Source of the DNA: Terramyces sp. JEL0728 | Taxonomy: Eukaryota; Chytridiomycota; Chytridiomycetes; Rhizophydiales; Terramycetaceae | Reading direction: 5' to 3' | Length of the DNA stretch: 15,270 nt | Assembly: GCA_027603945.1 (NCBI GenBank) | Contig: JADIIU010000204.1 | Span: 1-15,270 of the forward strand | In this document: positions 1 through 15,270 of the stretch, piece after piece | How the letters are laid out: each line of letters opens with the position of its first letter | How positions within the stretch are numbered: the stretch's first letter is position 1 | The notes under the pieces: generated by a model | Told to the model about the DNA's origin: nothing | The model's input: the letters and a program-made list of their open reading frames with translations, nothing else | Database searches by the model: none | Translations under genes and position numbers: made by a program

Positions 1-477
1 TTCAGGCGAGCAGCTATCCCATATGAGCATACCAGATGCAAAAATCAGAAATAGTGACGGTTGAATCAAAGTCAGCTGGTTTATGCAGATGATTCCAAAA
101 ACAGCATACACCACAATTCTGAGTCCGTTTGACATTTCATGGATGGAAGCCATTGCTGGGAAATAGTCTGATTCGATCGCAAAGCAAATAACAGCTGCAA
201 ACAACGCAATAACCCCTACTAGAGGCAAAGATGGACCGAAAATTGGTTTTGGAGGAGCTAAAAAGAACACTCCGCTCTGATTGCTAGGTCCGTACTGTAC
301 AATTGGGCCCAAATCTGGAAATATATTTGGAGCTCCAAATATTTCTGTGAAGGTTGGATAATCCTTGCCAGGGAACATGGTGTAGATTCCTCCATCTACC
401 AAGAACACTGATGCAGTGATTACTTGCCATCTCGCCCACTCTTGGAGCGCACTTCGTTGAATTCCTCCCTTTGCCAT
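1..477 (-). CDS. Multi-pass membrane protein, N-terminal part (open at window edge)
   Basis: The frame is open from an ATG at 475-477 to the window edge (159 codons, no stop), so the C-terminus is missing. The N-terminus is short and polar (starts MAKGGIQRSALQEWARWQ). Hydrophobic stretches follow around residues 18-33 (ITASVFLVDGGIYTMF), 82-101 (PLVGVIALFAAVICFAIES), 118-136 (LRIVVYAVFGIICINQ) and 143-156 (LFLIFASGMLIWD), giving about four membrane segments. The pattern of an N-terminal Trp-rich helix, a 'GPSLPLVG' entry to helix 2 and an Arg at the start of helix 3 recalls small fungal four-helix membrane proteins of the DUF7727 type. That is from memory and is a weak assignment. No intron is needed in the visible part. 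It shares the 197-bp promoter region with noxR, and a TATTTAAA lies 35 nt upstream of its ATG. Function unknown. Confidence 0.7.
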   Translation of the reverse strand, partial: MAKGGIQRSALQEWARWQVITASVFLVDGGIYTMFPGKDYPTFTEIFGAPNIFPDLGPIVQYGPSNQSGVFFLAPPKPIFGPSLPLVGVIALFAAVICFAIESDYFPAMASIHEMSNGLRIVVYAVFGIICINQLTLIQPSLFLIFASGMLIWDSCSPE

Positions 478-674: not shown

Positions 675-2024
675 ATGACAACCAAAGACGAATTGCAATT
701 TTGGGTTGAAGCACATGAAGCGTACAAACTGGGCAATCTACAAGATGCATTAGAGCTTTTTAGAAACGTTGGACCTTATTCCAAGATTTTGTTCAATATC
801 GGAATGATTTACTCCAGAATAGACGACCATGAAAGCAGCAATATTATGTTTACACAGTGTTTACAGTTGGATCAATTCTGTGCAGTTGCTTACGTTCAAA
901 AGGGCTATGCCTGCTTTATGCTGTATGAATATGAGCAAGCAGAGGCATGCTTCAAAAAAGCTCTAGAACTTTTACTAGATAACGATTTCATAGATTACGA
1001 ACAGCTAGGGTTAAAATTCAAATTGTACAGATGTGAAATCCTGTACAATATCGGAATGTGCTGCGAACAGCTCAATGATAACAACGGTGCGTCCAGATAT
1101 ATCCAAGAAGCTTCCAAACACATGAAGACCGATGATCACAAAAGTGTCATTGGGTCATCAAGAAGAAATGATAATGTCACTCTCTTCACAGTCCCTTTCA
1201 GCTGCATCTTTTCACTCTCAGACCAAAAAATCAAAAACATGAAAAAGAAAGAGTTCTTGGGTGAAGCCAAACTGGTTATTGACTCTGATGGAGGCGGTCC
1301 GGATGGTCCTGGCTTCCTTGGGTTCACTGGTGCTACTGCTGTGTTGGATATTGAAATTAGTGCCACTACTACCTTGGCTCGAAAAAAGACTGCGAAAGAA
1401 GAACCAAAATCACTTTTAAAAGCTGCATCATCTCCACTTTTGGGCAGATCAGACTACAAAACTGGCACTATTGGCAGAAGTCAGACTGAAACTAAAAGAT
1501 CTCCAAATCCACCTGTAAGTAGGAGTCAAACTGCTCCACGAGCCCCTCCAAAAGACAGACCAAGAGAAGACAGACCAAGGAGTCCTCCCCAGCCAAGAGA
1601 AGCAAAAGAACCTAAAAAGATCTTTTCAAGAAAGTCTTCCCTCCCAACTAGCAAGGCACCACGTTCTTCTCCTGAACCAATGCCAAGAAGCAAAACTCTA
1701 GGCAGATCAAGGGGCAGTGGAAGCGACTCTGGTTATGAGGAAGCAGGCAGTATCAGAGTGAAAATACATACTGAAAAGTCGACTGTCTCTATGAACGTCA
1801 ACCAAAACATCAAATTTGATCAGTTCCTCGATGAAGTATGTGACAAGTTAAGAAGAAATGACACTCCCCAATTATGTTTCCCGGATGAAGATGATCCAAA
1901 CACTATGATTACTGTTGTTGACGACGATGACTTTTTTATGGTCATGTCTGCTAGTAGCAAGATCAAACACTTTTATATCGCCAAAGAAAATGCCAAAGCC
2001 AATGATGTGCTTGATTTCTATTAG
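675..2024 (+). CDS. noxR: NoxR / p67phox-type NADPH oxidase regulator
   Basis: 449 aa, single exon. Residues 5-150 form a TPR domain that aligns without gaps over long stretches with human p67phox, for example IDYEQLGLKFKLYRCEILYN at 106-125. Residues 167-203 match the p67phox oxidase-activation segment (FTVPFSCIF, then KKKEFLGEA), with I186 where p67phox has Val204. Residues 235-355 are a Ser/Pro/Arg-rich, probably disordered linker with repeated RSQT/RSKT motifs. Residues 358-427 are a PB1 domain with a first-strand lysine (K363) and an acidic cluster (D404-D407 and D416-D419). There is no SH3 domain, as in fungal NoxR. Known role of the family: a cytosolic partner that binds GTP-Rac and activates NoxA/NoxB, with the PB1 domain linking to Cdc24/BemA polarity proteins. 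Odd: the Rac-contacting Arg102 of p67phox aligns with L101 here. An AATAAA lies at 2062. Two PB1-only genes follow on the same strand. Confidence 0.9.
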   Translation: MTTKDELQFWVEAHEAYKLGNLQDALELFRNVGPYSKILFNIGMIYSRIDDHESSNIMFTQCLQLDQFCAVAYVQKGYACFMLYEYEQAEACFKKALELLLDNDFIDYEQLGLKFKLYRCEILYNIGMCCEQLNDNNGASRYIQEASKHMKTDDHKSVIGSSRRNDNVTLFTVPFSCIFSLSDQKIKNMKKKEFLGEAKLVIDSDGGGPDGPGFLGFTGATAVLDIEISATTTLARKKTAKEEPKSLLKAASSPLLGRSDYKTGTIGRSQTETKRSPNPPVSRSQTAPRAPPKDRPREDRPRSPPQPREAKEPKKIFSRKSSLPTSKAPRSSPEPMPRSKTLGRSRGSGSDSGYEEAGSIRVKIHTEKSTVSMNVNQNIKFDQFLDEVCDKLRRNDTPQLCFPDEDDPNTMITVVDDDDFFMVMSASSKIKHFYIAKENAKANDVLDFY

Positions 2025-2061
2025 CCTCATTCGTGGAACCTCATGTAAATAATAGTTATTT

Positions 2062-2067
2062 AATAAA
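2062..2067 (+). terminator. Polyadenylation signal of noxR
   Basis: AATAAA 38 nt after the noxR stop codon, in a T/A-rich stretch. Confidence 0.5.
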
Positions 2068-2180
2068 ATTATTTTCAAATTCCATTCGTTCCGTATTTAA
2101 CAGCCAAATTCCACTTTGAACAAGTCAAGACAAGCTTGTAGTGGGAGCCCATAGTAAAAATTACTCTTCTCTGTTTGAGA

Positions 2181-2606
2181 ATGATAAGTTCGCTGCCCAA
2201 GTTTACTTTTTCAATGAGTTTCATGCCACAGAATGCCAGTGTAGAGCAACTCGAATCAATCCTATCATCCCTGCCAATCCCTGCAAGTACTCCAACCCAA
2301 CGAGCGCTCTCAATTCGATCCTCAATCCAAATCTTTGCAAACAGAGCAAGTATCAAATCGGTTCGGAAAAGCAGAACCAAAGTCAAAGTCCACACTCCTG
2401 AAAATACAATTACGCTATGGCTTACCACAAATGATACATTTGAAAAGTTTATATCCTCACTAATTGACCGCATACCACTTGCTGCCTATAGCGATATCGC
2501 ATATATGAATGCTAAATCTGATAATCTTGAATACATTAAAGATCAATCCGGTTTCCAACAAGCACTAAAACAGAACCTCAGTCTGGTGCATTTTTGCCTT
2601 CAATAA
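2181..2606 (+). CDS. Small PB1-domain-only protein with degenerate acidic face
   Basis: 141 aa from the ATG at 2181. In-frame ATGs at 2214 and 2223 are alternatives; a weak TAGTAAAA about 29 nt upstream favours 2181. Residues 1-64 are Ser/Ile-rich with no recognisable domain. Residues 65-141 are a PB1-like fold. TKVKVHTPENTITLWL (66-81) aligns with NoxR RVKIHTEKSTVSMNV and with the third gene's IKVHTHKYTISMWV, and FEKFISSLIDRI (87-98) matches the first helix. The conserved first-strand lysine (K69) is kept, but the acidic OPCA motif is eroded (AYMNAKSDN, then KDQSGF where the sister has FDQEDF), so it should present only a basic, type II-like PB1 face. It ends at the last strand and lacks the VLDFY tail of its neighbours. 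The stop codon is inside an AATAAA (2602-2607). Probably a diverged copy of the NoxR C-terminus. Function unknown. Confidence 0.65.
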   Translation: MISSLPKFTFSMSFMPQNASVEQLESILSSLPIPASTPTQRALSIRSSIQIFANRASIKSVRKSRTKVKVHTPENTITLWLTTNDTFEKFISSLIDRIPLAAYSDIAYMNAKSDNLEYIKDQSGFQQALKQNLSLVHFCLQ

Positions 2607-3047
2607 AACTAATTAATCATACGATTCTTTTGCAATTTTCACGATTTGGTCTTTTACCGAAACTATCAAAAATGCCAGACTTTATGCTGGTTGATAAACA
2701 CAGTGGCTAGACTGTTCTAGTTGCCATCTTAATCCTACTCCAGCCAGCCAGATCAGCATTGGTAAAGTCTTTTGGCAAATCCTCAAAGAGGGGGCAAATT
2801 CAGCCGCGTCATAATTACGTGCGAATTGGAAATTGTATTTATCCAATATATTGGTAATAAATAATGTACATCGTGTTGTCTTGCATTCAAGAATACATCC
2901 CTGGTTGTTTTGAATCCCAATGTCCTAATCTATCTCGAGTTCTCTTGAATTTTGTTACTCGGAACCCACATGTGAAACAAACTGAAAACATTCTCCCTAT
3001 CATCATCAGTCATATAAATTGCCTGTCAATTTGAGATCTCATACCCA
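2607..3047 (+). other. Intergenic region and promoter of the third PB1 gene
   Basis: 441 bp with no convincing open frame. It holds a TGAAACA (2973-2979), identical to the Ste12 pheromone-response consensus, and a TATA box TATAAA (3013-3018) 35 nt before the ATG at 3048. I see no RNA gene or tandem repeat in it. Confidence 0.4.
3013..3018 (+). promoter_or_regulatory. TATA box of the mini-PB1 gene
   Basis: TATAAA in the context CATATAAATT, 35 nt upstream of the ATG, at the same distance as the TATA-like boxes before the genes at 477(-), 9730 and 13463. Confidence 0.5.
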
Positions 3048-3377
3048 ATGTCAGTATTCAAACGAAGAGATAGCGGATATTCATCAATCGATTCATTTCG
3101 GTCAACTCGGTTTGTTGACAAGATAAAGATCAAAGTGCACACACACAAATATACCATTTCAATGTGGGTAGACTCCACCACCAGGTTCGATGCGTTCATG
3201 GATAACTTGAGGGATAAAGTCGATATCCCGAAAAACGTTTGTTTAATTTATTACGATGACGACCATATGGTTTCAATTTTTGACCAAGAAGATTTTTACT
3301 TGTCGCTGGTTGAAAAGCGGCTATTGCACTATTATTTCAGAGATGATACAGCCAAAGAAGTCTTGGACTTTTACTAA
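3048..3377 (+). CDS. Mini-PB1 protein, standalone paralogue of the NoxR C-terminus
   Basis: 109 aa, single exon. Residues 1-22 are basic/Ser-rich with RDSGYSS, reminiscent of SDSGYEE just before the NoxR PB1 domain. Residues 24-97 are a complete PB1 domain: IKIKVHTHKYTISMWV in the first two strands (lysine K29), FDAFMDNLRDKV in helix 1, and the acidic OPCA motif YYDDDH followed by FDQEDF (69-83). The protein ends KEVLDFY, nearly the same as the NoxR end NDVLDFY. It therefore looks like the last ~100 residues of NoxR set free as its own gene, with both PB1 binding faces intact. By analogy it could bind Cdc24/BemA-type PB1 partners or NoxR itself and act as adaptor or competitor; that is inference. 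A TATA box lies 35 nt upstream and an AATAAA follows at 3382. Confidence 0.8.
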   Translation: MSVFKRRDSGYSSIDSFRSTRFVDKIKIKVHTHKYTISMWVDSTTRFDAFMDNLRDKVDIPKNVCLIYYDDDHMVSIFDQEDFYLSLVEKRLLHYYFRDDTAKEVLDFY

Positions 3378-4127: not shown

Positions 4128-4492
4128 ATGACCAAAGATCTCCAGATTCCAAAAGAAGCTTTTATTGAAGTGGATGAAACCCCGATATTGATTCAGCAGC
4201 TGCCGTGCCGAATTGAATATAATGGGGAAGCCAACGTAGAGAAATACTTGCAACCAGACCAAGATTTGGAAACTAGTTTTCGTGGACGGGCACTGAAAGG
4301 AACAACTCTAAAAATACAGGATGGATATAAAGCTGTTGTTTTGACGGATAAATTGGTCACAAAACAAAAAGAAATTCTCGTATATGGACATGATCACAAG
4401 CCAGATCGGTCTACTCCGTCAATGAACGTAAATATGTGGATCCAAATGGCTCAACAGGTAAGTTTTTATTAAGAAAGATACATTCAGACTAG
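4128..4492 (+). CDS. RNASEH2C: Ribonuclease H2 subunit C
   Basis: 114 aa in two exons, 4128-4457 and 4478-4492, with a 20-nt intron at 4458-4477 (GTAAGT donor, AAAG acceptor). It is recognised by the family core LPCRIEYNGEANVEKYLQ (residues 25-42) and SFRGRALKGTTLKIQDGYKA (52-71). The catalytic subunit is RNASEH2A; subunits B and C form the triple-barrel scaffold of the nuclear complex that removes ribonucleotides and RNA:DNA hybrids. The spliced end WIQMAQQIHSD resembles the human end (W..LAAAIH...). Intron retention gives ...AQQVSFY with a stop at 4470-4472, and a 30-nt intron to 4487 is a third option. With the preferred splice the last 9 nt overlap the end of SKI3 on the other strand. The ATG at 4128 is preferred over an upstream in-frame TTG and has an A/T-rich AATAAAA 37 nt before it. 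Confidence 0.8.
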
Positions 4493-7400
4493 TTGCGATT
4501 CAAGCCATTCATAGTGCTTTGTATTTATACAAGATTTTAAAACCTCTTTGTTTTTCGTTATTCTTGATTTGTTTTGTTTCGCATCGAATTTGTAATTCGT
4601 CAGGGTCTGTATGAACTTGGTTGCGATGGAAGTAGAGTTTGATTTTGAAGCTTGCATAATAATATCATTTGCCTCTTGTATTTGGTTGGTTTGAAACAGC
4701 GCACCAGCAAGTAAAGTAAGATTAGACGGGTTATTGGAGACTTTTTGAGCTTTCTTGAAACATTCAAGTGCAGCCTGGGCAAAGTTGTTTTGCAGATAAA
4801 TTGAACCGAGAAGATGGAGAGAGTATATCCAAGAGTTCGAGCTGATAGATAAGACGGCGGATTGTTTGAGAGATTGTATGGATGACGCGAGATCGCCCAT
4901 TTTGTATAATGCCATGCCAAGTAATCCATATGCTGTTTGTTGTAATGATCCACTAGCACTTGAAGCAATGTCGTCGAATACAGGGATACAATCTTGAACA
5001 GCATCTGGATTGGAATTTAACTTTGCTTTGCTATCTACCAAACTCGCCCAAATAGCAGTATCAGAACCTGGGTCGATTGCTTTAGCAGATTGTGCACAGA
5101 TTTGAGAAAGATCATACTCAGAATCACCTTCTTTTTTAATGGCCATTGCCAACCAATTCTTTGCGTTGCCTGGATCCAGCATGATTGCTCTTGATAACTT
5201 CTTGGAGGATTTTTCAGCCTCTAAACCTTCAGACATCACGGCCACTCCTGAAATACGGTGAATTACTGAAATTTCTTTTGTCGATTTCAAATCTGCATGG
5301 ATACTTGGGTGGACAGCTTTAGATACTGCTAAACTGCTTTCCACAAGAGTAATTGCTGTTTTAGCATTTGCAGAGAAATATCTAGGTCAATATTAATTAC
5401 GTGTAAATAAACTCTGATAATCTTGCCCATCGTTGGGCTTTCCATGGGTATCTGTGAATAGTTTTGGCAAAGAATCTTTTTGCTGTTTCAAAATCATTTT
5501 GTAGAATAAACAATTGGGAGAGGACGACATCAATATCATAATCTACATCTTCCAGATGCTGTGGTTCAATTCTGATCAATTCTGCCGCAGACGATTGTGC
5601 TAGATCCCAGTCCCCTATCAGAATACCCAAACAGCACAAACTGAGAATCGGTCTTGCTGCTGTCGGATTATTCGAGAAACATTGGAGTAATTGTTGCTTG
5701 GCAAGCGCAATATGATCTTTGGAGCCAATAGCAAACAAAACTTGACTAAGGTATAGTGAAATGTCCACAAACAGCTTTGGATCATTTGAGGTTTCACACA
5801 AATCCAGCGCAGATTGGAAAGCAGACATTGATTCGGAGTATTTCCCGTTAAAGAACAAAGCAATGCCATATCCGACATGTGAATGTGCATCCCCAGAATT
5901 GGAAACGACATTTTCAAACAATTGAGCAGATTCTTCAAAATTGGAAAGAGCACAAGTGTTTCTGGCCAAGTTTTCCAAACAGAGGTGGTAATTTGGATCA
6001 TTTACATCGAGAATTGCCAATGCTTTCCTAAACGCCTCAACCGCTTGTTCAGTCTGTCCTAATTGCTCCAGCAGCAGCCCATACAGGTTATACAATGTAG
6101 GTTCTGGATACTTTTTTTCCACGCATTTCAAAAGAGCAAATGCACCATTAATGATGGCAGACTGGAACCTTTCTGGTTTAAAGTAACATTGACGTGCATA
6201 ATTGTACATCACTTCAAAATTAGTAACTTTTCCAAGCTCATATGCGTGTTCAAATAAATCAAATACTTCTTCTGAGGCAAGATTTTCGGCAATGAAGGCT
6301 TGACCTAACCAACCCAAGGAAAGCTCAGGGTCTACACTTTGACACTTTGAAAAACATTGTGTTGCCAATTCTAGATCGCCGTTCAAGTAATAAAAGTATC
6401 CCAAATTGGACCATAGGGTGCCAAACTAATATTAAAAGTATTTACTTGGCTGTCTAGTTCTAAAGCTCTGATGAATGAGTGTTGAGAAATATTTGGAAGG
6501 TTAACATGAGTAACCACTCCTAATGTGTTCCAGGAGTGTATCGAATCTGGCGAATACTGTAAAGATAATTTCAAGTACTTAATAGACGCCTCAGCCAAGT
6601 TTTTAGAATGCTGCGCAGATATAGTTGATCGGTAGTAAAGTGCCAAGCCAAGGTCGTGCATATACGATGATATTTGCACAGATTTGGTCGAATCACAAGT
6701 TAATATTGCAACTTGATATCCAATGGACGCAGACTGCACTAATTCGTCCAATAATCCGTCCGCCGTGAATTCATCCAATTCGTACTGCCTTAACTTGTCA
6801 CTGTACATTTCCGTCAGATGTGTGCTTCCTGAAGTAACTGTTTCAAGCTGATCATCTTGTAGTAATTCAGGCACAAGACGATAGATCAAGATACAGGCAT
6901 CTGCGTGTAGTTTGCTGAAACATTGAACAGGTGATTTTGGAATAGCTAGGGCTCTTGAACAAATATCCACCGATTCCAATAGGAGGGTTATGCACGACCC
7001 AAATGCACCATTTTCAAATTGTTCCTTTGCATAGATGATCAAATTTTCAGACATTCCTTTCAAAGTAGGGATCATATGTGCGGTGTTATCAAGCCCCAAC
7101 TTGTTCAATTTATCCAGCACAGTCTTATAGTTTTTGTGCGAATCTGAAAAATTACCCAATTTTTGATTTACATATCCCTTAAAGTAATAAGAAACGTGGC
7201 TTGCTTCATCCAGTTCAATTGCTCGATCCAGAGCTTTCAAAGCAGCAACATACTTGCCTTCGCAAGAATAAGCCTCTCCAAGTGAGATCCAGCAGATCAC
7301 ATCTTTAGGTATGATCCTGAGCGCGGTTTGAAAGTAATTTATCGCTTCTGGATATGAATTGGCATGCTAAATCAACAGACTATTACCATGCTGATTATTC

Positions 7401-9249
7401 CAAGTTGTTTCCAAGCCCACATACTCCTGGCAACAAGATTGACAAACTGTAGGAGTAAATCAACTGATTCCTTGATTTTATCTTGATTCAGCCAGATTCT
7501 GACTAATTGGCGAACAGCATCTTCATCTTTTGGGTTTGTGGATATAGCTTTACTAAAGCATTTGGCGGCTCTGGAGATATCATTATCCAATTCCAAGTAG
7601 TATTGACCCAACAATGTGAATGGCCCTGAATTTGTGGGGTCTAGCTTAATGGCTTGGATTAAACCAGCGTGTGCATATTGTTTGTCGCTTTGATATTCAT
7701 CTCCCATCTCCCAGTATACTCTTGCCAGTCTAAAGTGTGCAAGGCTTGACTCGCGAACAGAGATCAACTCTTTCAGTATCCCGACTGCTTCCAGACTATT
7801 GCCCAGTAAATATTCAGTCCATCCAATTTCCAAAGTTGCAGATTCATTCGTAGGTTCCAACGCTAGGACTTTTTCAAAACATCTTTTTGCTTCTGGATAT
7901 TTCGCAATAGCAGACAATGCTTTTCCTAAACCGATGAGAGCAGGGATGTTGCTTGGTTCCTGTTGAAGTATGGTTTTAAAAGCTGTTAAAGCCAGAGTTG
8001 AGTATGCCTCTCCTAGCTGTGAATACGAGTTTGCCAATAAAAGCTGGGATTGTAGTAGTATTCTAACATGAATTATAAATTACCTCTTTAGTGATATACC
8101 ATATTTTGTTTCCTTGTCACTGATCAATTTCTGCAGTTTTTCACAGCTGTCAATCGTCAATTGCCACTCTCCTTGAGCAAAATATATTTCCACTAGTATT
8201 TGATAGCCGAAAATACTCTCATCATGCTTTTCTAGCGCTTCAAGAACTTTTTCTGTTCCCTCAATCAAATCGTTTTCGTTAAAACTCGCCAATCCAATGG
8301 TAAAATTATTATACAAGTCATCCTCTGTGAATTTTTCAAGTAAATTTGTATCTCGTTCATCTATGTTAGCTCTCGTCTACCCAGTAGCTGATCTAGATTT
8401 TCTATTACCAGCTGGCATGCAACAGGAGAAAAAGACCGAGATTGACACTCTTGGGCTTTTTCCAATAATCTATTAAACAAACCCGGTTTTTCTACTTCTG
8501 GTACATGTAGCACTTTGCGGGCCATGAATTTCAAGTATTTTGTAGAGTAAGCAGCAAACTGCTCGTCATTTAAATCCAGCTCAAATATACTTTCATAAAT
8601 AGAGTCAAGCTACATTAAGAAAACTTACTGGTGCATCCAAGATGAATTCTTGCTCAACTTTCAATTGAATTATTGGCAATGGATCCGCTCCTAGTCGCAT
8701 TCTTCTTACTTTGACTTCCTTTTCTACGGTTTCATAATATTTCTTTTCGCACAAATCCGCACACTCTGATAATGCAGTATATGGGTTGGGTATATCCAAA
8801 TCTTTGATCAATTCATATGAATCTGACCCAGGCAAGAACTCTTGCAATAATGTCAGTGTTTCGTTGACTAGCTCCAATTCCTTTGCAATCTCTAGCTGTC
8901 TATTTAGGCATTCGAGATACTTTTGTCCTTCCTTTTGATGGAAATAAATCTTGCTCAAGGCTCCTGATACTTGGTAAATCCCTTGCTGCTCCTTTTCCGA
9001 TTCATACAATTTCAGTAATCCTTGATATGCCAATGGTTGCTGCGGAGATATTTTTATTGCAGTCTCGTAAGCTTTGCGAGATTCTCGCACCAGAGATTGC
9101 TCCTTGCACGCCAATCCTAGAAATACAGCTGCATTGTAACTTGAAGGATCATTTTCCAGTATCGTCTCGCATAATCCTTGTGCGTATTCAAAATTCTTTT
9201 GAGATATTGCTTCCCTTGCAATTTTCAACTGTTGCTTGATGAATGACAT
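4484..9249 (-). CDS. SKI3: Ski complex TPR subunit SKI3 (TTC37 family)
   Basis: Seven exons (8629-9249, 8381-8609, 8084-8360, 7387-8062, 6446-7366, 5401-6425, 4484-5381) sum to 4647 nt, 1548 aa, close to human TTC37 and yeast Ski3. Introns: 8610-8628, 8361-8380, 8063-8083, 7367-7386, 6426-6445, 5382-5400 (19, 20, 21, 20, 20, 19 nt; phases 0,1,2,0,0,2). Every junction restores frame and family sequence, for example SLGEAYSCEGKYVAALKALD in exon 5 and LWSNLGYFYYLNGDLELA then SKCQSVDPE after the fifth intron. The protein is TPR repeats almost throughout, with a first repeat near the N-terminus (YAQGLCETILENDP). The family scaffold holds the helicase Ski2 and the WD protein Ski8 and threads mRNA into the cytoplasmic exosome for 3'-5' and no-stop decay. 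It is convergent with RNASEH2C, the two coding ends overlapping. The start ATG (9247-9249) opens a clear TPR N-terminus. Confidence 0.92.
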
Positions 9250-9729
9250 TTAGTTTGAAAATTTAATTTGCAATCTAAGACCATAATGTATTTGGTTTAA
9301 ATGTTTATTGGCATTGCATGAGCAGCGAAGGAGATCCTACAGAGCAATTCAACCCTACCTACCAACTTCAAAAAGGAACCTTTCGAGGTCTCCAATCCCT
9401 TTACTTTACTTTCATTGCCGTGTTTAGTTGCACACTTTAAGATGGATCCTTGGCCAAAAGCCCTATAGCGGAGCCAGACTCGAAAACCGAGAAAAACTAA
9501 ACTTCAAATGCATTTTGCTTTAAAGGCATACTTGCGACGAGTCGAGAGCGTGGTTCATCCCCAACTCCATTGCCCTGCTTGCCAATTATTTCTCCACTGT
9601 GGGTTGTGAATTTGTTTGACGTGCTAAAACTTTGCAAAACGACAGGGGTGATGTTTCACACAAATGAAACCTATGAAATCATAGGCCACACGGAATATAA
9701 ATAGGCAGCGGTTCCTGTCAACCCAAATC
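9250..9729 (+). promoter_or_regulatory. Divergent intergenic region between SKI3 and the 96-aa gene
   Basis: 480 bp. The right end is organised. TGTTTCA at 9652-9658 faces TGAAAC at 9665-9670 (an inverted pair with a 6-nt spacer). It runs directly into a perfect palindrome CCTATGA-AA-TCATAGG (9670-9685). Next comes TATAAATAG (9696-9704), 34 nt before the ATG at 9730. A 40-codon ATG frame (9318-9440, MSSEGDPTEQ..., hydrophobic end LYFTFIAVFSCTL) lies in the left part. I have no evidence that it is expressed. No tRNA-like cloverleaf was found. Confidence 0.5.
9696..9704 (+). promoter_or_regulatory. TATA box of the 96-aa orphan gene
   Basis: TATAAATAG, the best TATA match in the window, 34 nt upstream of the ATG. 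The leader would be only a few nucleotides if transcription starts about 30 nt downstream of the box. Confidence 0.6.
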
Positions 9730-10020
9730 ATGCAAAAGACTCAAGCAAGCAGACCAGTCGCACTTGAAAATCTAGTTACCCAACTCAGCCTCAACTACAA
9801 TGATGCACCAGCGACTTCATTCTGCTCGCCAATCACTCCGCAATCAAAGAACAGCGCAATGATGGAGCTATCAGAGATATTCAACTACAACAGCCAAATA
9901 AAGACCTTTGCGTCGCCGGTTGAACGACACCAATCCACACGCAGACACTCTTTGCTGTACAGCCAAATTGATATGAGTGTTTTCAGTGCTCAATTACCAT
10001 CTATTGAGGAGCACCATTAA
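9730..10020 (+). CDS. Small orphan protein with strong promoter
   Basis: 96 aa, single exon, not recognised. The protein is polar and probably largely disordered, rich in Ser, Gln, Asn and Pro, with no signal peptide or membrane segment. A short helix-like stretch is ENLVTQLSLN (13-22). Two basic/Ser sites stand out, VERHQSTRRHSLLYSQID (68-85), where RRHS fits a PKA-type basophilic kinase site, and the end is SAQLPSIEEHH. Support for a real gene comes from the TATA box 34 nt upstream, the inverted elements before it and AATAAA at 10033-10038 after the stop, not from homology. It could be a short regulated protein; function unknown. Confidence 0.6.
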   Translation: MQKTQASRPVALENLVTQLSLNYNDAPATSFCSPITPQSKNSAMMELSEIFNYNSQIKTFASPVERHQSTRRHSLLYSQIDMSVFSAQLPSIEEHH

Positions 10021-10032
10021 TTTATAACTGTT

Positions 10033-10038
10033 AATAAA
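10033..10038 (+). terminator. Polyadenylation signal of the 96-aa gene
   Basis: AATAAA 12 nt after the stop codon. Confidence 0.45.
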
Positions 10039-10198
10039 GTATATCTAATCACATTCCTATTTCCATGTGCGCTATCTCTGATTGGCTGCATAACACCTTT
10101 GCTTTAGTTTCCAGGCAGCATCAACACAGTAAGTGGGTTTTTACCGTAATTTATTACCGACAAAGCTATTCCAACTCCGCGAAATTAACCTTGCAAAA

Positions 10199-11615
10199 AT
10201 GCAACTCACACTACTTGCAGCAGTATCAGCCCTGGTTATCCAACAGCCGTTTCTCACCAATAAGCGAGATGCATACAAGGTTGGACAGCTTCCCATCGAT
10301 GGCCCAGTCCCACCTTCTTACTCTGGATTGATACCAATAAAGTAACTGTTACTAATATTAGCACCGCAAACGTAAACAAATCAATCTTTTTCTGGTACTT
10401 TGAAGCTCAAGAACCCCTAGAAGAAAATCCACCATTGGTTATCTGGTTGCAAGGAGGACCAGGATCAAGTTCAATGATTGGATTATTTTATGAAATGGGA
10501 CCATACTTTATTCAAGATAAACTCACCATGAATCCTAATACCTGGAATAAGCACGCTGGGATGCTGTTTATCGATAACCCTGTAGGCACTGGATTTAGTT
10601 TTGTTGAAGACAACCCAAAATTAGCACGAGAATTTGATTTCATACCAGAAACGGATTTACTTGACTCTAGAGAAGTTTTCAAAGACAAAAAGTGCAAACC
10701 ATACAAACGCAACGATAAAGCAGTGTACAAAGATGGATACCCAGCAAACCAAGCGGCGGTCGCAAAGGACCTGATTTACTTTTTAGATGAATTCTATGGT
10801 ATATTTCCAGACCAGTTGAAATCAAAGCTGTACATTACTGGCGAAAGCTACGCAGGCAAATACGTACCAGCACTTGCCTATCATATCCATAAAGCAAACG
10901 AAAAAAGATCTGCGCAAATTCCTTTAGCCGGAGTAGGAATTGGAAATGGATTGACCGATCCTATTACCCAGATAAAGTATCATGCACCTTTGGCCTTGGC
11001 TTTAGGACTAGTCTCTCATAAAGGAGCGGATGAAATCAGCAAGCTAGCCGAATTATCAGTTCATTATATTTGCCATCATGATTGGGAAACGCATTGAGAG
11101 CACGTCAAACGTTATTTGATGTGTTCCAGAAAGAATCTGGTGGGGTAAACTGGTATGATGTCCGCAAAAGTTCTGCTCAATACGATCGAGGTCCAATGAA
11201 TACTTTGCTTGAATCTGCAGATACAAGACTTGCGCTTAATGTTGGCAATCGCAGATACGGAGAGGATCCAAATGTCGATGCTCATTTGCGAGAGGATATC
11301 ATGCAATCCGCAGCGTCATACTTTCCTGAAATACTAGACAATGGATACCAAGTGCTATTATATCAAGGGCAGTTTGATTACCGCGATGGCGTTTGGTCAA
11401 ATACAGAGTGGATTGAAAATATTGACTGGAAACATCGAAAAAAGTTTCTTGAACAGGAAAGGCAAGTGTGGAAACCAATGCAAGTTGCTGGGTACTTTAC
11501 AAAATACGAAAATTTGGTGCGGTTTGAATTATTGAATGCAGGACATTTGGCACCAGGCGATCAAGGAAAATCCACTTTGAGTATGATTGAGCAGTACCTA
11601 CTGCTGATGAATTAA
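10199..11615 (+). CDS. Serine carboxypeptidase (S10 family), apparent single-base frameshift
   Basis: Exon 1 is 10199-10341 and the intron is 10342-10361 (20 nt, GTAACT...ATTAG, phase 2). Exon 2 runs on to 11615, but with a break. The frame coming from exon 1 is intact through TGG at 11083-11085, then hits TGA at 11095-11097. The family sequence continues one frame back from GGA at 11085. Read across the break it gives about 465 aa, normal for S10. The N-terminus [14 protein letters not shown] is a short signal peptide. Motifs: [10 protein letters not shown] near residue 76, nucleophile GESYAGKY (S210), [10 protein letters not shown] (catalytic Asp, about 387) and [10 protein letters not shown] (catalytic His, about 443). 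The enzyme would trim C-terminal residues in the vacuole or outside the cell. The alignment around the break loses no residue, so a missing G in a run of three (11084-11086) explains it. It may be an assembly error or a recent null allele. It is convergent with the gene ending at 11641. Confidence 0.85.
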
Positions 11616-11640
11616 ATATATAACTGGTTAGGTCCGTTTA

Positions 11641-12222
11641 TTACAGTTTAACTCTTTTTTCACACCGACCTTCATCCATAGTTCGTTTTCGCACGATTGC
11701 AGTTTCAAAATGATAACCATACTCATAAACCCAGCACTGAGAATCAAGGTCAACATGATCATAAAATTTTGGCAGTGGTCTTGTTACGCTTTCCCCAAAC
11801 ATTGTCGATCCAGCGTTCGCCAATTTCTGTTTCTTCATCAAATGTAACTGATGCAAAGAGGGTATCATATGTTCTGCAATCCTGCATCTCCAGAATCTGA
11901 CAATTATACTTCCTGGTATAAGGGTATTATTGAATGTAAACGAAAGTACTTTTGTGCATTGTCCAACCCCGTCAATAAAGTGGTTTCTGGATTTTATAAA
12001 GATTCCTTTGCGGACTTGCTGCTGATTGATTTCTATTTCGTAGCGGAATGTGCATTCGTTGGATATTGCAATATCAGGATCTAGAGAAATGTAAATACCG
12101 TACTGCTTGCCCGGTTGACCGATTATTACCGCTCGCTTCCATGCATCGGTATTATCAAGTTGATTTTCTGGTATTGGCTGCTTGTCAATGATGATGTTCA
12201 CTTGAAACAATTTGCCAAGCAT
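11641..12222 (-). CDS. Uncharacterised protein, possibly DUF7918-like
   Basis: 193 aa from the ATG at 12222. The frame also has an ATG at 12258 (205 aa), which would directly abut the Derlin stop. I prefer 12222 because the beta-strand-like sequence begins there (MLGKLFQVNIIIDKQPIPEN). The protein reads as alternating strands with YGIYISLDPDIAISNE, a central KGIFIKSRNHFIDGVGQ and a strand-rich SIIVRFWRCRIAE, followed by a charged C-terminus ending RKRTMDEGRCEKRVKL. The order (a short 'vdG' strand pair, a cyi/yg...f-type strand, 'xxhfiDGv', a strand, then WR.R) recalls fungal DUF7918 proteins. That recognition is from memory and tentative. The C-terminal basic stretch could be a nuclear signal. 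The 25-bp gap to the carboxypeptidase stop and near-zero gap to Derlin leave little room for its own promoter or terminator. Confidence 0.6.
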   Translation of the reverse strand: MLGKLFQVNIIIDKQPIPENQLDNTDAWKRAVIIGQPGKQYGIYISLDPDIAISNECTFRYEIEINQQQVRKGIFIKSRNHFIDGVGQCTKVLSFTFNNTLIPGSIIVRFWRCRIAEHMIPSLHQLHLMKKQKLANAGSTMFGESVTRPLPKFYDHVDLDSQCWVYEYGYHFETAIVRKRTMDEGRCEKRVKL

Positions 12223-12258
12223 CAAAAATTTGAAACTTTTAATACGTATTTTACACAT

Positions 12259-13053
12259 TTATTGAGCCAATGGAACAGGGTCTACATCTTCCATCCTCAA
12301 GTCTGGTATTCTTTCAATCGCCACCTGTCGTTCAAATAATCGCTTGAACCATCCAGGAGTGCCAAGAATCCTCGCTCCATTTGATGCAGGCATATTGGGA
12401 AACACATCTTCAAAGAAATAATAGAAATGCCCAACTACTAGTCCCAAACAATCAGCCCACGGAATACTAGAATGCAATAGCAGAGTGAATCCAATTAGCG
12501 TAAACGGGAGATAAGGTGCATTGAACGTGAAAACACCAAGGAACGAAATCCTTAGCGCTGGATTCCTTCTCGACCACAAATATGTCAAAGTAAACGTGAG
12601 CGATGAAGACAAGAATGGAATAAACTGATTCAAATTGAAAGCCACGGATAATGTCTGAGTGAATCAATAGTTACCGTAATACTGACCATTGAAAACAAGA
12701 TAAAATACAAAAACTCTGGTTTCTTTCCTCTATAGAAATCATCCTCTAAATTCTGACAATATTGAAGTCTAGATTAAATCCGAGTTACAAGAAATACAAA
12801 TGAAATAACGTGTCGATTGAAATCGAGCCGAAATACAGGTATGTGGTTAATAATCGCCAGTACTGGGTCAATACGATCGTACCTGTCCTTCCTGCCAGAA
12901 TAACGGCCAAGTAAAGAATAGCTGGTATTTATTGAATAGTTTGAGTTGCTAGGTTAAATCTATATCTACGCATCCGAGTGATGTAAGTGCGACTAGTGTT
13001 ATGTAGATTCTAGTGACTGCTGGGATTCGGTTATACCAATTTTCAAAATCCAT
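12259..13053 (-). CDS. Derlin (Der1-like ERAD rhomboid pseudoprotease)
   Basis: Five exons (12970-13053, 12883-12948, 12789-12862, 12675-12768, 12259-12654) join to 714 nt, 237 aa. Introns are 12949-12969, 12863-12882, 12769-12788 and 12655-12674 (21, 20, 20, 20 nt; phases 0,0,2,0). The spliced product has the Derlin landmarks in order: WYNRIPAVTRIYITLVALT at the N-terminus, the L1 WR motif (W52-R53 in QYWRLLTTYLYFG), LEDDFYRGKKPEFLYFILF (82-100), YLWSRRNP (131-138), FTFNAPYLPF (148-157) and the GxxxG of the last membrane helix (G177 and G181 in GLVVGHFYYFFEDVFP). The active-site Ser and His of true rhomboids are absent. Family role: multi-spanning ER membrane protein that thins the membrane and helps retrotranslocate misfolded proteins. 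No SHP box is seen at the short C-terminus, so it is closer to Der1 than to Dfm1. Minus-strand CCAACCAATC lies about 30 bp upstream of the ATG. Confidence 0.9.
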
Positions 13054-13462: not shown

Positions 13463-15270
13463 ATGTTACCACTGGCCTGTTTTTTACTGGCATTGCAGGT
13501 ACAACCAATTCTAGCTGGAGATGCTAATTCAAAAAGTGTACAAAATGGACAGCCAAACCCACAACCACCTGTAACCAACACAAACCAAAACCATAATGGA
13601 TCTAATCCTCCAAAGAATGATGGGAATTCCAATACCCCATTATCTGACAAAGTCGCTGCTACAAAGAATACCTCTCAAAATGATGCAAAAACCAAAGCTG
13701 TCAAAAACCAAAATGACAATTCTCAAGATGATTCAAATAATCAACAGCAAAAAGTCGATCCGCAACAGAACAAGCCAGATAACCAATCATCCCAACAAAA
13801 TCCAAAGAAGGACTCTGAAAAGACTGTTGGTGATAAACCAAACAAATCCAGTGATCAACAAAAACCAACAGGCAATAATCAGTCTAAAACAGTCAACCCA
13901 GTCCCAAAAGATTCCAATCCACCAGACAGTCAAGAACAAGCCAAAGGCGTTCAACAATCAAAAGACGACCAAAAGCCTGATAGTCAACCAAATAACCAGC
14001 AAAAACAAAAGAAATCCCCCAAAGATGGCTCTACAGCCAACGCTCAAACTGGAAATCAATCCGCTGACTCTGGTAAACAAAAACAGCCTGTTAATGCAAA
14101 TAGCCAAGGTGATAAGCAAAGTGATCCTGGAAATGCATCTCAACCAAAGATTAATCCACAATCAAGTGATCAGCCACAAAATCAACCAAGGGTCGAAGCT
14201 CCTAAGCAAGATTCCAACATTGAGCAGAACAGTCACGAAGGAAAGGGTTCAAACGATACCGCTGGAGCTGGTAATACTCAGAAATCAGATTCTGGCCAAA
14301 ATGCTAAAAACAACATTCAAACTGTAAATAATGTAAATGCCTCCGAAAGTGAGCCAACTCCTACTGCGTCATCTCCTGATATCCAGAACAATGCCAACAG
14401 TCAAGCCAAATCTGATAATTCACCAAAATCGTCAGGTAATATTAAATGTAATGTAGATTCAACCACACTACAGATTACAAACACTCCGAAAGTTCAACAG
14501 TCAAATCCTGATGATTCAGCCAGTGTTAAAAATGGAAACGTAAACAACCAGTCCAGTGAATCACCTACTGCACAGCAGAGTGATGACAAACCGGCCGCTG
14601 TTCCTACTGTAACTAATACTCCCCAATTGACTGATTCCACTTCAGAACAGCCTTTACCACTCAAAACCGTCGCATCAAAAACCCAACCTCTTGAAACTTC
14701 AACTGCTGGACAGGCTGCTAGTGAACCAACCAAAGACACAACTTCAAGCAGCGGAGATAACAGCCAAAATCAGCCAATCAAGTCTGATAAAGGAGATGTT
14801 AACAGTGCTGTAGCATCTGCAACCTCTACTTCCAGTGGAAAAAGCAACCAACAAAACTCTGATCAAAATACTACAACTAGTGCCTCCGACACTGCTAATA
14901 ATGCCAATTCTGGCAGCGATGGAAATCAAAAAACCACCACTAATCCTTTCATCACAAATTCCAAAGATTCAACTGCTATTAATCAACCACAAACAACCCA
15001 GCAATTAATCGCATCCCCAACCCCAAGCTCTAATCAAAAAGGCAACAACAATGGTTCAAATGATAAGAATCAGGGAAATAATAATGGGCAGAATGGCAAT
15101 GGATCAAAGGGAAACAGCCAGGCAGCCACCACTCGGAGTCAAGATGGTAGTGCTCAATCCACAACTACCCAGCAAAGTGCTGCCCAAACTACCACTTCTA
15201 ATCAAAATGGTCAAGGCAACAACGGCTCAAATAATAACCAAGGGTCGAATGGTAACTCGGATAACCAAGG
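13463..15270 (+). CDS. Secreted Asn/Gln/Ser-rich low-complexity protein, N-terminal part
   Basis: The frame is open from the ATG at 13463 to the window end (602 codons, no stop). Residues 1-18 (MLPLACFLLALQVQPILA) form a clear signal peptide with probable cleavage before GDANS. Everything after is low complexity: Gln, Asn, Ser, Lys, Asp and Pro in the first half, more Thr/Ser/Ala in the middle, and Asn/Gly/Gln blocks (GNNNG, QNGNG, NNQGSNG) near the end. There is almost no aromatic residue, and apart from the signal peptide I found a single cysteine, in GNIKCNVDSTTLQI about 54% of the way through, the only strand-like stretch. Codons for each residue vary (CAA/CAG, AAT/AAC), so this is not a fresh microsatellite. 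Likely a wall, capsule or extracellular stalk protein whose functional domain or anchor lies beyond the window. Many N-x-S/T sites and Ser/Thr suggest glycosylation. Confidence 0.75.
   Translation, partial: MLPLACFLLALQVQPILAGDANSKSVQNGQPNPQPPVTNTNQNHNGSNPPKNDGNSNTPLSDKVAATKNTSQNDAKTKAVKNQNDNSQDDSNNQQQKVDPQQNKPDNQSSQQNPKKDSEKTVGDKPNKSSDQQKPTGNNQSKTVNPVPKDSNPPDSQEQAKGVQQSKDDQKPDSQPNNQQKQKKSPKDGSTANAQTGNQSADSGKQKQPVNANSQGDKQSDPGNASQPKINPQSSDQPQNQPRVEAPKQDSNIEQNSHEGKGSNDTAGAGNTQKSDSGQNAKNNIQTVNNVNASESEPTPTASSPDIQNNANSQAKSDNSPKSSGNIKCNVDSTTLQITNTPKVQQSNPDDSASVKNGNVNNQSSESPTAQQSDDKPAAVPTVTNTPQLTDSTSEQPLPLKTVASKTQPLETSTAGQAASEPTKDTTSSSGDNSQNQPIKSDKGDVNSAVASATSTSSGKSNQQNSDQNTTTSASDTANNANSGSDGNQKTTTNPFITNSKDSTAINQPQTTQQLIASPTPSSNQKGNNNGSNDKNQGNNNGQNGNGSKGNSQAATTRSQDGSAQSTTTQQSAAQTTTSNQNGQGNNGSNNNQGSNGNSDNQ

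Follow-up and report, generated by a model that had tools for sequence, protein, structure and literature searches.

The window analysed here is a contig in its entirety (JADIIU010000204.1, C204; 15,270 nucleotides, nt) from the genome assembly of the chytrid Terramyces sp. JEL0728 (Chytridiomycota, Rhizophydiales, Terramycetaceae), which comprises 15,016,339 bases in 231 contigs. Four of its genes, encoding the TTC37-like protein SKI3, a Derlin, a serine carboxypeptidase, and RNASEH2C, appear to be interrupted by introns of only 19–21 nt (Table 1). A preliminary description of this DNA had listed twelve such introns, and all of them were located as claimed, with matching lengths, branch motifs, and ends; each begins with GTA, and nine end in TAG, two in CAG, and one in AAG. 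Judged from the sequence, eleven of the twelve predicted introns are well supported, and the candidate in RNASEH2C is the weakest.

Table 1. Genes of the window with predicted ultrashort introns; positions are those of the window, and aa stands for amino acids.
Feature	Position	Strand	Length (nt)	Branch motif	Basis or remark
SKI3 (TTC37-like), six introns	4484..9249	-	19–21		identity to deposited 1548-aa protein
SKI3 intron 1	8610..8628	-	19	TTAAT	also called by the gene finder without a motif model
SKI3 intron 2	8361..8380	-	20	CTAAC	missed in the motif-free gene-finder round
SKI3 intron 3	8063..8083	-	21	TTCAT	motif-free gene finder and spliced frame; in-frame TAA
SKI3 intron 4	7367..7386	-	20	TTGAT	missed in the motif-free gene-finder round
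SKI3 intron 5	6426..6445	-	20	TTAAT	motif-free gene finder and spliced frame
SKI3 intron 6	5382..5400	-	19	TTGAC	motif-free gene finder and spliced frame
Derlin (DER1), four introns	12259..13053	-	20–21		spliced product 237 aa; aligns to Derlin-1 chains
Derlin intron 1	12949..12969	-	21	TTAAC	spliced frame; final TAG in frame
Derlin intron 2	12863..12882	-	20	TTGAC	spliced frame
Derlin intron 3	12769..12788	-	20	TTAAT	spliced frame
Derlin intron 4	12655..12674	-	20	TTCAC	spliced frame
Serine carboxypeptidase (Peptidase_S10), one intron and a separate frame break	10199..11615	+	20		Pfam
Carboxypeptidase intron	10342..10361	+	20	CTAAT	Pfam match crosses the junction
RNASEH2C, one possible intron	4128..4492	+	20		PF08615; Boothiomyces protein 78% identical over 100 aa
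RNASEH2C possible intron	4458..4477	+	20	TTAAG	spacing fits; end AAG

Removal of the six SKI3 introns yielded a protein identical at 1548 of 1548 residues to the deposited Superkiller protein 3 of Terramyces sp. JEL0728; thus, the deposited model already includes the 19–21-nt introns. The next-closest matches were found in Boothiomyces JEL0866 (71%) and JEL0838 (66%), Globomyces JEL0801 (44% over 53% of the query), and Batrachochytrium salamandrivorans (34%), and in the alignment with Boothiomyces JEL0866 all six junctions were free of gaps. Together, the four relatives contained nine deletions of at least eight residues (0, 2, 5, and 2 per relative). Three of these nine, in the relatives labelled P0003, P0004, and P0005, lay within four residues of a Terramyces junction; this would fit short introns mis-modelled at the same places in the relatives, although it is only a hint.

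The spliced Derlin frame matched Pfam DER1 with 178.7 bits over profile positions 1–190 of 191, whereas a six-frame search of the unspliced gene gave 88.8 bits with seven internal stops. A second Derlin paralogue on another contig (C98, locus L003; DER1, 137 bits) has two 20-nt introns in its model. When the carboxypeptidase intron was removed, the Peptidase_S10 match reached upstream over the junction, which then began at profile position 11 instead of 21 and scored 215.5 instead of 210.2 bits. For RNASEH2C, the Pfam score was 53.9 bits spliced and 53.4 bits unspliced; the PDB alignments ended ahead of the junction, as did the one relative returned by the protein search, from Boothiomyces, which returned none from Terramyces. 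The TTAAG branch and the AAG end of this candidate are rarer variants, yet both occur at the same spacing elsewhere. If spliced, the gene would end at 4492, with a 9-nt overlap with the SKI3 stop on the opposite strand; without splicing, its end would be at 4472 and there would be no overlap.

The genome-wide extent of such introns was estimated from a 215-kilobase (kb) core set consisting of twenty 10-kb stretches and the window. A 255-kb set additionally comprised loci from family searches, including the near-duplicates L028 and L029, which were left out of the core. Genes were predicted from coding statistics, with any GT...AG intron of 8–120 or 8–200 nt allowed and no length preference; initial training of the donor and 3′-end matrices used introns of 16–40 nt, and these matrices cover the ends only, with no length term. 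When motifs were left unmodelled, 34 of 77 predicted introns were 19–21 nt long, compared with 0–3 of 62–74 for twelve control pairs of boundary dinucleotides. After the third training round, 174 of 231 introns in the 255-kb set measured 19–22 nt, and after the fourth round 178 of 242 (57, 77, 29, and 15 at 19, 20, 21, and 22 nt); few fell just beyond this range, and a thin tail reached 200 nt. Eight control dinucleotide pairs trained for three rounds placed 1–12 of 98–153 introns at 19–22 nt. In the core set alone (21 sampled sequences), 145 of 196 introns had these lengths after the fourth round. The organism is a fungus, and introns of 19–22 nt are the rule in the sampled 255 kb of its genome; the outcome set beforehand as evidence against this, a mode well above 30 nt, did not occur.

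The same signal was recovered without gene finding. The pattern GTA N{k} YTAAY N{1,2} YAG occurred in the core set 4, 4, 4, and 1 times at k = 3–6, 73, 36, and 12 times at k = 7–9, and 3, 3, 1, and 4 times at k = 10–13, on a background with a mean of 2.73 and a maximum of 7. The three enriched spacings, to which the window contributed 3, 2, and 1 matches, correspond to a branch adenosine 13, 14, and 15 nt past the donor G, and a single match was found at 12 nt. On the 3′ arm, spacings of j = 1 and 2 yielded 73 and 48 matches and other values of j up to 15 yielded 1–7, so that the intron ends 5–6 nt past the branch adenosine. Both distances therefore have a sharp lower edge, upon which the introns are piled. 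All twenty sampled stretches contained spacing matches. Antisense to predicted genes, no enrichment was detected (10, 7, and 5 matches at k = 7–9 versus 5–12 elsewhere). In the whole genome, GTAAN{6,8}YTAAYN{1,2}YAG was present 4,709 times, compared with 274 for the reversed pattern. Since this sub-pattern had 84 matches in the 255 kb in which 178 short introns were predicted, the genome may hold short introns of the order of 10,000, as an estimate.

Homology provided a further control. Twenty complete predicted genes had at least two introns, all of them short; from the 14 inspected, four recognisable ones were chosen and aligned to solved structures. Thirteen of their 15 junctions fell at ungapped positions (PP2A A subunit, 4/4; CCT zeta, 4/4; acyl-CoA dehydrogenase, 3/3; U2AF65, 2/4), and the other two lay beyond the displayed alignment. 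For three further genes of the twenty, and for the carboxypeptidase, the check was by Pfam alone.

The core set contained 164 short introns (18–23 nt) in 154 predicted genes. All of them carry GT and AG, which were demanded by the search; the donors were GTA in 150, GTT in 7, and GTG in 7, and the introns ended in TAG (110), CAG (40), AAG (11), or GAG (3). Phases 0, 1, and 2 were represented by 80, 45, and 39 introns. A strict YTNAY motif was located 4–7 nt before the end in 140 of the 164, and in 132 of these the intron ended 5 or 6 nt past its adenosine, in agreement with the fixed branch-to-acceptor architecture proposed in the preliminary description. The donor-to-branch distance of about 13 nt given there also proved to be the commonest: the adenosine lay 13 nt past the first G in 76 introns, 14 nt in 53, 15 nt in 10, and 17 nt in 1, that is, 13–15 nt in 139 of 140. 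A T-rich stretch sits between donor and branch. The donor was weak at position +5, where G accounted for just 20% and T for 41% in the core gene models (+4, A 60%; +6, T 63%); such a donor is unusual and may have a bearing on pairing with U1 and U6.

In-frame stops had been reported in the 21-nt introns of SKI3 and Derlin, and both are present (TAA and TAG, respectively). However, the accompanying statement that nonsense-mediated decay could detect every retention event was an overstatement. Although 29 of 30 predicted 21-nt core introns hold an in-frame stop, the gene finder hardly detects stop-less introns of this length, and the consensus itself yields stops: in phase 0 the terminal TAG is one (the Derlin case), and in phase 2 the donor supplies one as GTAA or GTAG (the SKI3 case). 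Selection for stops was considered and is not claimed.

The components of the splicing machinery in which changes had been envisaged, U2, SF1, U2AF, and Prp8, were all found. A full-length U2 small nuclear RNA (snRNA) gene (140.2 bits, L005:1501-1693) retains the standard branch-binding sequence GTAGTA (GUAGUA). Genes for U2AF65, SF1, Prp8, and Cwc25 are present in the genome, and each carries 19–20-nt introns in its model. The U2AF65 match scored 251.7 bits unspliced, below the curated 310.3 bits, and the spliced RRM pair aligned to solved U2AF65 at 212 bits. Cwc25 starts with MGGGDLNLKKSWHP, the same residues as in chain 5yzg_X, the CWC25 homolog of a solved human spliceosome, and its N-terminal glycine plug is intact. 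For ISY1, in which a divergent N-terminus would be the Stentor-like state, the search returned no Terramyces protein among the best 120 of 3,790 matches. RED had no match in Terramyces and none in any control genome either, which makes that search uninformative.

From the DNA and its translations, we consider it highly probable (about 0.93) that these segments are real U2-type spliceosomal introns, in a chytrid genome where most detectable introns are 19–22 nt long. Several points weigh against this. The evidence consists of genomic DNA and protein comparison only, and the deposited SKI3 model may itself have been predicted ab initio. A strict YTNAY near the end was lacking in 24 of the 164 core introns. 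The spacing excess at k = 7–9 was also seen within frames read as coding (23, 10, and 5 versus 2–7 elsewhere) and in supposedly non-coding stretches (22, 23, and 10 versus 0–6), which indicates that the gene models miss introns. Fifty-one of the 196 core predictions fell outside 19–22 nt; they resemble the control background, and a minority of longer introns may exist. Finally, U6 snRNA was not found in the assembly with Rfam or with two core patterns. The 3′ core, with up to two mismatches, had no match in the whole genome, and the 5′ core, with up to three, had six, all with three mismatches, versus three in the control. The Rfam matches of 27.4 and 26.9 bits were rejected, the best being below the cut-off and both lying on a coding region present twice. 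The U6 gene may be absent from the assembly, diverged, or interrupted.

The 51 predictions of other lengths would also be expected if the short introns were just one class and a substantial share had the ordinary fungal length of 50–100 nt, all the more so as the survey covered introns within coding regions that have a clear coding signal. However, these predictions are spread thinly across 8–200 nt, like those of the controls; longer introns with the same signals produced no second peak in the spacing spectra, which extended to k = 40 or 60, and the classical fungal donor–branch pattern had only 0–8 matches per 10-nt bin. A second class of this kind therefore seems very improbable. Even less credible is the idea that the segments are excised by means other than the ordinary U2-type spliceosome, such as a separate machinery or a strongly altered one: the undetected U6 and the weak +5 position of the donor could be taken in its favour, but the YTNAY branch consensus and the branch-binding sequence of U2 are standard, and U2AF65, SF1, Prp8, and Cwc25 are present. 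An origin of the segments as indels from sequencing or assembly, or as artefacts of gene models framed by GT...AG by chance, can be dismissed almost entirely despite the one frame break in the carboxypeptidase that no short GT...AG intron explains, since random indels would lack donor, branch, and acceptor at the fixed spacing that exceeds its reversed control so strongly genome-wide, other dinucleotide pairs have no such peak, and the homologues are colinear at the junctions.

If the segments are spliceosomal introns, their length would be set by two short rulers, one placing the adenosine of the YTNAY branch motif 13–15 nt past the first G and the other placing the AG, mostly YAG, 5–6 nt past that adenosine. 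This adenosine would be the branch point, and the whole intron would probably be recognised as a single unit. The U1 site at the donor (about -3 to +6) would then almost adjoin the U2–branch helix, and thus the donor is probably passed early from U1 to U6, or the small nuclear ribonucleoproteins bind sequentially; one of these two routes is the most likely. In human extracts, shortening of the donor–branch distance to 46 nt abolished splicing, and the geometry of the B complex needs about 52 nt (PMC6692369); U1 and U2 therefore cannot be so spaced in Terramyces. Since the T-rich stretch precedes the branch, binding of U2AF65 to a classical tract on the downstream side is hardly feasible, and this upstream stretch would be the sole place long enough for the protein.

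Ultrashort introns are known from other eukaryotic groups, and those of Paramecium and Nyctotherus are reportedly about 25 nt long. Among the listed titles and abstracts of open-licence papers, none reported a fungus with introns of about 20 nt as the rule, although an earlier report may exist. Introns measure 15–16 nt in heterotrichs, 16–17 nt in mikrocytids, and 18–21 nt in the chlorarachniophyte nucleomorph (PMC10245619, PMC12316389). Among fungi, Cryptococcus neoformans has a mean intron of 63 bp, called relatively short in a study of 644 fungal genomes (PMC8476143). The Terramyces introns share the U2-type GT-AG character of these ordinary fungal introns in protein genes; however, they have about one third of the Cryptococcus length and a fixed two-ruler geometry (PMC8476143). 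The nucleomorph has a nearly equal length range (PMC10245619, PMC12316389), but it is the relic nucleus of an endosymbiont of algal origin, whereas in Terramyces the main fungal nucleus is concerned; the comparison is one of length. Mikrocytids resemble Terramyces in a very narrow length range and a conserved intron sequence, but are reduced parasites with 224 introns and a reduced spliceosome (PMC10245619), whereas Terramyces has an estimated 10,000 or so and the spliceosome genes sought were present except for U6 and RED.

Like Terramyces, Stentor coeruleus is a free-living organism with genome-wide ultrashort GT-AG introns, a near-fixed branch position, a conserved branch-binding site in U2, and U2AF2 present (PMC9505925). 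The two differ in that the branch adenosine is at position 10 or 11 in Stentor and mostly at 14 or 15 in Terramyces, and in that the Stentor branch region is described there as having no strong consensus, unlike the YTNAY of Terramyces (PMC9505925). In addition, Stentor Cwc25 is given as lacking the glycine plug that is intact in Terramyces, and the authors offered the conjecture that alterations in the branching factors prevent a collision with the tiny lariat (PMC9505925). The intact plug of Terramyces Cwc25 suggests that plug loss is unnecessary at a spacing of 13 nt, although the Stentor spacing is shorter still. It is more likely than not that the spliceosome of this fungus, and perhaps of its order, has become fixed in its geometry and takes hardly any introns other than those with 13–15 nt from donor to branch and 5–6 nt from branch to end, and that this arose independently of ciliates and rhizarians with the conventional branch-site machinery (U2, SF1, U2AF65, and the Cwc25 plug) kept, so that the Stentor change in Cwc25 would not be a general requirement for ultrashort introns.

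Heterotrichs, mikrocytids, and the nucleomorph demonstrate that such introns are feasible, but they are remote from the best-studied spliceosomes. As U2AF65 and Cwc25 of Terramyces match solved chains well, the sharing of a tiny substrate by U1 and U2 is directly testable in this fungus, which also represents an independent case for checking the Stentor hypothesis. In genomes of this kind, gene models would go wrong if the gene finder imposed a minimum intron length.

In the carboxypeptidase, the frame break lies at about 11082-11097, where two overlapping frames match Peptidase_S10 (profile 21–215 and 268–418); it may indicate a pseudogene, an assembly error, or something else. Near-identical locus pairs occur on different contigs, namely L028/L029 (C199 and C111), in which a one-base difference alters the frame, and L048/L049 (C30 and C33); this suggests that the assembly contains duplicates, either of haplotypes or of segments. 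The remainder of the window holds, at 675-3374, a protein with TPR and PB1 domains (675-2021) and, after it, two small frames, of which that at 2142-2603 has no Pfam match and that at 3051-3374 resembles by eye the C-terminal part of the TPR/PB1 protein and has a weak ubiquitin-like Pfam match. A frame of 230 aa at 3411-4103 matches the homeodomain weakly (24.6 bits; cut-off 22.9). At 13464-15268, a long low-complexity frame rich in N, Q, S, K, and T, with a signal-peptide-like start, runs off the end of the contig.

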